A stretch of DNA of 64,000 nucleotides. Origin: Saprospiraceae bacterium. Its GTDB lineage: Bacteria > Bacteroidota > Bacteroidia > Chitinophagales > Saprospiraceae. Every line of letters begins with the position of its first letter. Position 1 is the first letter of the stretch. The stretch lies in contig JAHDGU010000001.1 of assembly GCA_020627535.1 (NCBI GenBank), positions 290,670-354,669 of the forward strand, in the 5' to 3' direction. The position numbers and the translations under genes are program-made. Below the pieces are notes generated by a model that was not told the DNA's origin, did no database searches, and saw only the letters and a list, made by a program, of their open reading frames with translations. Positions 57,640 through 57,942 of this stretch are shown one piece after another.

Positions 57640-57718
57640 TCGTGCAAAAGAATATGTTAAATGTTTGGGGGTCTTCTTGATTTTGGCACATCTCTTGTTT
57701 ATGTTTAACCACCAGAGG

Positions 57719-57820
57719 ATGAATACAACGTATCAAATAGCTACTTCTATTACCACCACATGTTGCACGTGTATGACCACGTGTATGTGTTGCTGTGGGC
57801 ATAGGCTGAAGCTGTTTTGA
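57719..57820 (+). CDS. Leader peptide rich in Thr, Cys and Met codons
   Basis: 33 codons, MNTTYQIATSITTTCCTC followed by MTTCMCCCGHRLKLF. It has nine Thr, seven Cys and two internal Met codons, with 15 of the 16 codons from 11 to 26 being Thr, Cys, Met or Ile (one run without interruption). It precedes an intrinsic terminator and the operon metY-(OsmC-like)-metX/hom, which makes homoserine, O-acetylhomoserine and homocysteine. The codons thus match threonine and methionine, the two end products of homoserine, and cysteine, the sulphur-bearing relative. Confidence 0.85.
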   Translation: MNTTYQIATSITTTCCTCMTTCMCCCGHRLKLF

Positions 57821-57851
57821 TGATTAATAGGATACATTAAATCATTTATAA

Positions 57852-57890
57852 AAAAGAGCTGAAGCCACCCGGATTCAGCTCTTTTTTTTT
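57852..57890 (+). terminator. Attenuator terminator of the methionine-branch operon
   Basis: AAAGAGCTGAAGCC pairs with GGATTCAGCTCTTT (one bulge), loop ACCC, followed by nine T. The last codons of the leader (57805-57812, GCTGAAGC) repeat its 5' arm (57858-57865) and can pair with the 3' arm instead; a ribosome that reaches the leader stop would cover this copy. Confidence 0.88.
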
Positions 57891-57942
57891 GAGTCCGACG
57901 CTTCCGCAAAAAATCACACAACTTCTTCAAACACATTTCACC

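Follow-up and report, generated by a model that had tools for sequence, protein, structure and literature searches.

A Cys/Met-rich leader peptide as a probable transcription attenuator of the metY operon in a Saprospiraceae bacterium and its Bacteroidota relatives

MetY fixes sulfide into homocysteine, from which Met and possibly, via transsulfuration, also Cys derive. In the stretch of a Saprospiraceae genome analysed here (64 kb, hereafter the window), metY is preceded by a short open reading frame crowded with Cys, Met and Thr codons, which raises the question of whether this frame controls the operon and which of its codons are read. An earlier note on this DNA had proposed a leader peptide that reads Thr, Cys and Met together, followed by a strong terminator and a metY-(OsmC-like)-metX/hom operon, in the role of an absent SAM riboswitch. 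The order of these elements holds (Table 1), with the OsmC-like match lying below Pfam's cut-off, and the observation of a Cys/Met-rich leader and a terminator before metY is confirmed as real.

Table 1. Coordinates of the metY operon and of its putative control elements in the window
Feature	Position	Strand	Details
Bacteroidota-type promoter	57677..57707	+	-33 TTG 57677-57679; -7 box TATGTTTA 57700-57707
Leader peptide ORF	57719..57820	+	33 codons and TGA; sequence and comparative evidence
Region 1	57730..57750 (approximate limits)	+	1:2 partner of the leader tail without a ribosome, from the MFE fold
Regulatory codon core CCTCMTTCMCCC	57761..57796	+	7 Cys, 2 Met, 3 Thr
Region 2, predicted antiterminator strand	57804..57818	+	last leader codons: GGCU, AGCU, UUUU
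Intrinsic terminator, regions 3 and 4	57850..57890	+	hairpin 57850-57887 and U tract: AAAAAAGAGCTGAA-GCC-ACCC-GG-ATTCAGCTCTTTTTT
metY, O-acetylhomoserine sulfhydrylase, Cys/Met metabolism PLP enzyme	57943..59274	+	PF01053, E 9e-133
OsmC-like ORF	59335..59793	+	PF02566, E 1.9e-4, 22.3 bits (gathering score 27.5)
metX (homoserine O-acetyltransferase, alpha/beta hydrolase)-homoserine dehydrogenase fusion	59804..61822	+	PF00561, PF03447, PF00742

The open frame of the metX-homoserine dehydrogenase fusion starts at 59744. Upstream of the leader, an ORF at 54582-55592, which we take to resemble chorismate synthase, stands ahead of genes for an aminotransferase class V protein and then a VanZ-like protein; the VanZ-like gene ends at 57639 on the same strand as the leader. 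Elsewhere in the source genome metE was not found, and metH (L290) has no Cys/Met leader upstream. A search of that genome for other Cys/Met leaders gave 17 matches to four consecutive TGY codons, none convincing, as a search limited by the fact that the window leader itself does not fit the pattern; the best frames at these matches overlap long ORFs or run antisense to them. Across 40 relatives, a five-Cys pattern has many matches among the matches listed.

The leader translates as MNTTYQIATSITTTCCTCMTTCMCCCGHRLKLF, and its codons 11-26 form the unbroken block of 16 consecutive Ile, Thr, Cys and Met codons that the earlier note had pointed out. The last Cys lies 7 codons before the leader end. 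Among the 1295 ORFs of at least 15 codons in the window, the leader ranks first both for Cys plus Met (7 of 10 codons; runner-up 5) and for Thr, Cys, Met and Ile together (16 of 16; runner-up 11), and the maxima reached in 20 block-shuffled windows, 6 and 11 respectively, stay below it. Its promoter was called with the Bacteroidota consensus, which we take to be TTG / TAnnTTTG; the two boxes are spaced by 20 nt and the leader ATG follows 11 nt beyond the -7 box, so placed that the promoter would set the leader at the extreme 5' start of the mRNA. In the survey of relatives described below, a TAnnTTTR box stands no more than 30 nt from a possible leader ATG in 23 of 57 rows lacking a SAM aptamer (13% after shuffling) and in 3 of 66 rows with one (6% after shuffling), counts in which a few genomes are present twice.

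The RNA folds of the window offer a greater level of detail about how such a leader could act. A generic terminator scan (loops up to 8 nt) called no terminator in the leader region, probably because the stem closes on 10 nt without the inner CC/GG pairs. For the RNA 57713-57890, the predicted fold (-55 kcal/mol, z -4.4) comprises the 1:2 pairing plus the terminator. The inner hairpin over the control codons, the elements of which lie where the earlier note had placed them (CCACA at 57756, TGTGG at 57794, CACGTG at 57766 and 57778), is part of this 1:2 structure. The partial transcript 57800-57872, on the other hand, adopts precisely the antiterminator fold (-19.2 kcal/mol, z -3.8), with three helices of four pairs each (57804-57807/57863-57866, 57810-57813/57857-57860 and 57815-57818/57852-57855), the first two of which are separated by a tandem G-A mismatch. 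The same note had found an exact repeat of the leader tail in the 5' arm of the terminator, and GCTGAAGC does occur at 57805 and again at 57858. As a duplex, the window tail and the 5' arm (57852-57866) reach -17.1 kcal/mol (z -3.8; equalled by 0.3% of shuffles), whereas the tail and the 3' arm pair more weakly, at -12.0 kcal/mol (z -1.9; equalled by 4.3% of shuffles). The window leader thus displays each structural feature of an attenuator that we examined, namely a short ORF enriched in codons for the pathway products, an intrinsic terminator that separates the leader from the first structural gene, and a segment after the control codons that pairs with the terminator 5' arm.

In a classical attenuator, the leader tail must pair with the terminator 5' arm, and both must change together between species. 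This pairing was scored in 46 of 52 non-duplicate SAM-less rows, the window not being among the 52, after exclusion of three tails shorter than 3 codons and three weak stems. Native tail and 5' arm combinations average -13.9 kcal/mol versus -8.3 kcal/mol for swapped ones (Wilcoxon p = 1.3e-11), with a z of -2.70 against shuffled tails and z below -1 in 38 of 46 loci; in the other 8, for example L002, L210 and L247, z is not below -1. A control with the segment upstream of the core gives -5.7 kcal/mol and a z of -0.12, and a first version of the test on 34 loci pointed in the same direction. The pairing letters vary by lineage, with GTGAGAATG opposite CGTTCTCAC in L265/L266 and CCGGGCTGCAG opposite CTGCACCCGG in L044/L046, and GGCAGATGC opposite GCTGAAGCC in lineages near the window. 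The 1:2 pairing, measured between a 60-nt segment around region 1 and the tail in the 46 relatives, is also stronger than in swapped pairs (-17.0 versus -13.1 kcal/mol, p = 1.8e-5), with a z of only -1.0 against shuffles. The tail had been read in the earlier note as a decoy for the 3' arm. This reading retains the weaker pairing in the window, but in the 46 relatives tail and 3' arm pair no better than swapped combinations (-9.5 versus -8.7 kcal/mol, p = 0.13; z below -1 in 13 of 46). The partner of the leader tail is the terminator 5' arm, and the 3' arm is not its main partner.

The metY regions of the survey were drawn from the same family and order, from the best 80 of a larger number of genomes with record titles, and from a phylum-wide draw; since the phylum-wide set was partly picked for an apparent lack of SAM-I or for a distant MetY, the frequencies below are those of the survey and not of the phylum. 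With a leader defined as at least 5 Cys plus Met in 10 codons, including at least 1 Cys, such frames occur in 117 of 192 distinct upstream regions with a full MetY, compared with 2 of 192 on the antisense strand. In a larger set of 256 distinct metY regions, a leader ending 40-300 nt before metY is present in 141 and absent in 115. The search for Thr/Cys/Met frames before terminators that the earlier note had suggested found Cys/Met frames in relatives. The comparison indicates that Cys is the conserved theme of these leaders, with Met second and Thr not conserved, and the device appears to recur in many Bacteroidota families. A metY of Bacteroidota type preceded by a Cys/Met leader is also present on two contigs labelled as Lysobacterales MAGs (L084, L104), which are probably mis-binned.

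No SAM aptamer was found in the window, where the region 57000-58000 gave none at E values up to 1, degenerate copies included, and nothing reached the gathering score of the SAM-I riboswitch family RF00162. None was reported for the whole source genome either, under stricter filters with which weak matches can be lost, and the absence of a SAM riboswitch that the earlier note had assumed stands within this scope. Among the relatives, a covariance model trained on ten Rfam matches served to call SAM-I aptamers, supplemented for part of the loci by Rfam itself. The 141 leaders divide into 81 with a SAM-I aptamer in the region and 60 without, window included; for four of the SAM-less loci (L032, L033, L037, L150) the upstream sequence is shorter than 450 nt, and in L033 (236 nt) and L150 (165 nt) an aptamer could sit beyond the contig end. 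One locus (L114) was counted as a SAM locus in the 210- and 192-region sets, although its match does not fall in the 650 nt of sense strand ahead of metY; as the locus lacks a leader, the leader counts are unchanged. In another (L249), a SAM-II aptamer lies opposite the metY strand (546-652, -) and a SAM-I aptamer beyond metY.

The two groups of leaders display different architectures. All 81 leaders of SAM regions end downstream of the aptamer, 87-433 nt past its 3' end (median 124), and in loci such as L006 and L107 they are mostly Cys leaders between aptamer and metY. Per window of codons they average 5.81 Cys and 1.26 Met, versus 4.00 Cys and 4.05 Met in the 60 SAM-less leaders. At least 3 Met occur in 47 of 60 SAM-less leaders versus 6 of 81 SAM leaders, and with ancestry ignored the mean Met content per 10-codon window is 4.22 in 58 SAM-less versus 1.56 in 59 SAM leaders (p = 6e-15). 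A separate cut of 210 regions, with a leader defined as at least 4 Cys in 8 codons, gives at least 2 Met after the first Cys in 26 of 37 SAM-less versus 7 of 82 SAM leaders (Fisher p = 1.3e-11, ancestry again ignored); this cut also holds 41 SAM loci without a leader and 50 loci with neither. The geometry differs likewise. In 69 of 81 SAM leaders, at most 2 codons separate the last control codon from the stop, these leaders being mostly Cys runs that reach the stop codon, while a tail of at least 6 codons before the stop is found in 51 of 60 SAM-less versus 2 of 81 SAM leaders (SAM-less median 9). A strong stem with a U tract follows the leader in 40 of 60 SAM-less loci, in none of the 81 SAM loci and in none of the shuffles, when loops of up to 10 nt are allowed and loci without a stem (9 SAM, 4 SAM-less) are scored as misses. 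The other 20 SAM-less leaders fail this rule, and several close relatives, such as L003, L036, L041 and L044-L046, have a hairpin the U tract of which is not clear.

Related loci share ancestry, and we considered it on MetY trees, which may differ from species trees. A quick MetY tree built for the 117 loci that bear leaders requires at least 7 changes in SAM status. Supported independent pairs among these loci number 3, and in these Met content (at least 3) runs opposite to SAM status in 1.7 and with it in 0.0. For the 158 loci with SAM or a leader the same threshold gives 6.1 opposite and 0.0 same of 9 (median p 0.03; 0.06, 0.03 and 0.06 at Met thresholds of 2, 3 and 4), a test that is partly circular because SAM-less loci enter only if a leader is present. 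Over all 192 loci the result is not significant (3.2 opposite, 1.3 same of 12, median p 0.6). For an exchange between SAM aptamer and Met codons, the correlation is therefore strong and the hypothesis good, but we do not take it as an established evolutionary rule; with ancestry considered, it is weakly supported. The earlier idea that the leader replaces a SAM riboswitch accordingly keeps the correlation with Met codons and meets few independent contrasts once ancestry is taken into account.

A strict either/or does not hold throughout. The loose Met-leader rule is satisfied by 25 of 100 SAM loci, and L084 keeps a SAM-I aptamer (56 bits in Rfam) together with a Met leader. In family f43 (L279, L281-L284), the Cys/Met leader stands upstream of the SAM-I aptamer, the reverse of the order in the SAM loci with Cys leaders, and in L281 and L283 a terminator follows both leader and aptamer. 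These three sets of loci are exceptions to exclusive use of one device. By eye, five further loci (L202, L224, L227, L245, L247) carry two Cys/Met leader-terminator units in series before metY. One arrangement that would accommodate all of these forms, and to which we give even chances, is a modular sulfur sensor at metY of Bacteroidota, in which either a SAM-I aptamer or the Met codons of a Cys leader report on Met status, the two trading places and in part being stacked into two-input forms. With the aptamer present, a mostly-Cys leader would follow close behind it without a terminator, perhaps acting through Rho or on translation and perhaps gated by the aptamer. With the aptamer absent, Met codons would join the Cys codons, and the classical terminator and antiterminator would appear. 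In some lineages, two Cys/Met attenuators in series, or one ahead of a SAM-I riboswitch, may provide two-input logic on one mRNA.

For the window itself, the leader very probably controls the metY operon as a classical ribosome-mediated transcription attenuator, with Cys and Met as its regulatory codons. A shortage of charged tRNA-Cys or elongator tRNA-Met would make the ribosome pause in the codon core, leaving the tail free to capture the terminator 5' arm, and the resulting antiterminator would allow read-through into metY. When both amino acids are ample, the ribosome would run on to the stop codon and cover the tail, and the terminator would form. If the leader is not translated, the tail would presumably pair with the 5' part of the leader (1:2), and termination would follow. 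What the sequences show is the conserved Cys/Met composition, the terminator, the co-varying antiterminator, the geometry and the distribution of SAM aptamers; translation, stalling, the response to Cys and Met and each step in the cell are inferred.

The part of Thr in this scheme needs separate consideration. Thr makes up 27% of the window leader (9 of 33 codons), the highest value of the SAM-less leaders compared, and the operon encodes homoserine dehydrogenase, an enzyme of the Thr/Met branch point, as a fusion with metX; Thr, with Ile, could thus be a real third input in the source species. The relatives argue against this reading. In 56 other SAM-less leader rows Thr averages 5.3% with a maximum of 15%, and among five near relatives with operon content followed over ~6 kb downstream of metY, the metX-hom fusion is seen only in G006 (L285), the leader of which is not Thr-rich. 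The only other genome of the same genus in the draw (L010) has a contig that ends at metY, so the Thr comparison covers relatives beyond the genus. Neither Thr content nor operon content of the relatives supports Thr as a conserved input, and we consider a three-way sensor quite improbable; of the Thr, Cys and Met reading proposed earlier, Cys and Met are conserved, and enrichment in Thr is not found in relatives. The Rfam family Thr_leader (RF00506) gives a sub-threshold match of 25.7 bits (cut-off 55) at 57815-57888, over the leader end and the hairpin; with this score, and with Thr not conserved where the family has conserved Thr/Ile control codons, the locus does not belong to it.

A narrower sensor would pause at Cys alone, with Met, Thr and Ile as neutral filler or the ATGs as alternative starts. 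Cys is the sole residue rich in both architectures, and among 37 SAM-less Cys leaders there are 11 in which the first Cys is followed by no more than one Met. Moreover, Met is mechanistically awkward as an input because its shortage would also slow initiation at AUG, which needs fMet, and thereby favor termination. However, many SAM-less leaders (L037, L039, L236, L246, L265, L266) devote 5-7 of 10 codons to Met, L240, L241, L243 and L245 have leaders that are mainly Met, and the Met codons often lie past the first Cys, where a start is useless. Together with the sharp difference in Met content between SAM-less and SAM leaders, this makes a Cys-only attenuator rather unlikely. Short Cys/Met-rich peptides are also typical metal ligands, and the intact ORF could encode a small metal-binding or redox protein that stands before metY by chance. 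The order and spacing of Cys and Met vary freely, though, the need to pair with the terminator arm limits the choice of tail codons, and both composition and geometry track SAM aptamer status, all of which renders such a protein very improbable. Hardly credible at all is the idea that the hairpin terminates the VanZ-like gene and that the leader ORF is fortuitous. That gene does end upstream on the same strand, but the hairpin lies ~210 nt beyond it with a promoter box in between, the leader-hairpin-metY unit recurs in many families, and the leader ranks first of the 1295 window ORFs. The attenuator with Cys and Met codons best explains the leader.

Among known systems, the trp, his, thr, leu and ilv attenuators use a leader ORF with control codons and alternative 1:2, 2:3 and 3:4 pairing. 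Cys-run leader peptides of actinobacterial cys operons were reportedly described by Canestrari et al. in 2020. With the former, a mechanism summarised in passages of PMC9971707, the window shares the control-codon ORF, the three pairings and the intrinsic terminator before a biosynthetic operon; it differs in its Cys plus Met control codons, its Bacteroidota host and its metY operon. The actinobacterial cys leaders are characterised in passages of PMC1262725 by Cys runs near the stop codon without an obvious terminator, and Rho-dependent termination is suggested there. The window leader, with its Met codons, longer tail and terminator, does not share this pattern, whereas the SAM loci with Cys leaders fit it in both tail length and the lack of a stem with U tract, and differ by an aptamer that those passages do not mention. 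By analogy, these loci may resemble the Rho-dependent actinobacterial leaders also in mechanism. The uORFC-8-2 upstream of cysS in Rhodobacterales, as passages of PMC8632094 present it, shares with the window a Cys-codon uORF ahead of an intrinsic terminator; it differs in having two tandem Cys codons, no mention of Met, a tRNA-synthetase gene downstream and an alphaproteobacterial host. The SAM-I riboswitch (S-box, RF00162) stands before metY in many Bacteroidota relatives and likewise signals methionine status, but its aptamer binds SAM directly, and under the stricter filters it was not found in the source genome. An exchange of sensors at one gene, from T-box or riboswitch to leader peptide, is outlined in passages of PMC2965389 for genes such as hisS. 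Replacement of one sensing device before one gene is common to both cases; unlike in the hisS type, aptamer and leader codon content appear to swap here and can coexist in tandem.

Short ORFs reminiscent of leader peptides are mentioned for Bacteroides 5' UTRs in passages of PMC7366714, and short leader genes are counted in Bacteroidetes among others in passages of PMC4833913. Passages of PMC3766115 note that where some Firmicutes have lost SAM riboswitches, the loss correlates with other regulators, and the amino acid attenuators of its Rfam set are those for His, Leu, Thr and Trp only. The relevant passages of PMC11109978, PMC6230763, PMC13236596 and PMC1183508 describe no Cys plus Met leader. 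Among the open-access matches listed, a set with the subscription literature mostly outside, there is no described case of a Cys plus Met leader or of a leader-peptide attenuator at metY, and none of a SAM riboswitch and a Cys leader in tandem in Bacteroidota. New here are the Cys plus Met specificity, the occurrence in Bacteroidota and the apparent exchange or combination with SAM-I; the attenuation mechanism itself is known.

If this reading is true, Cys plus Met would be added to the few amino acids that leader-peptide attenuators are known to sense, and comparative evidence would extend such attenuation to a major phylum. A Met-codon attenuator would be of mechanistic interest because Met shortage hits initiation too. 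The metY leaders would also present a natural case in which methionine is, apparently interchangeably, sensed by a riboswitch or through the codon content of a leader peptide. These bacteria would then register when both sulfur amino acids run short and turn on the genes for making them, with related bacteria combining the leader with the well-known SAM riboswitch or having that riboswitch in its place.
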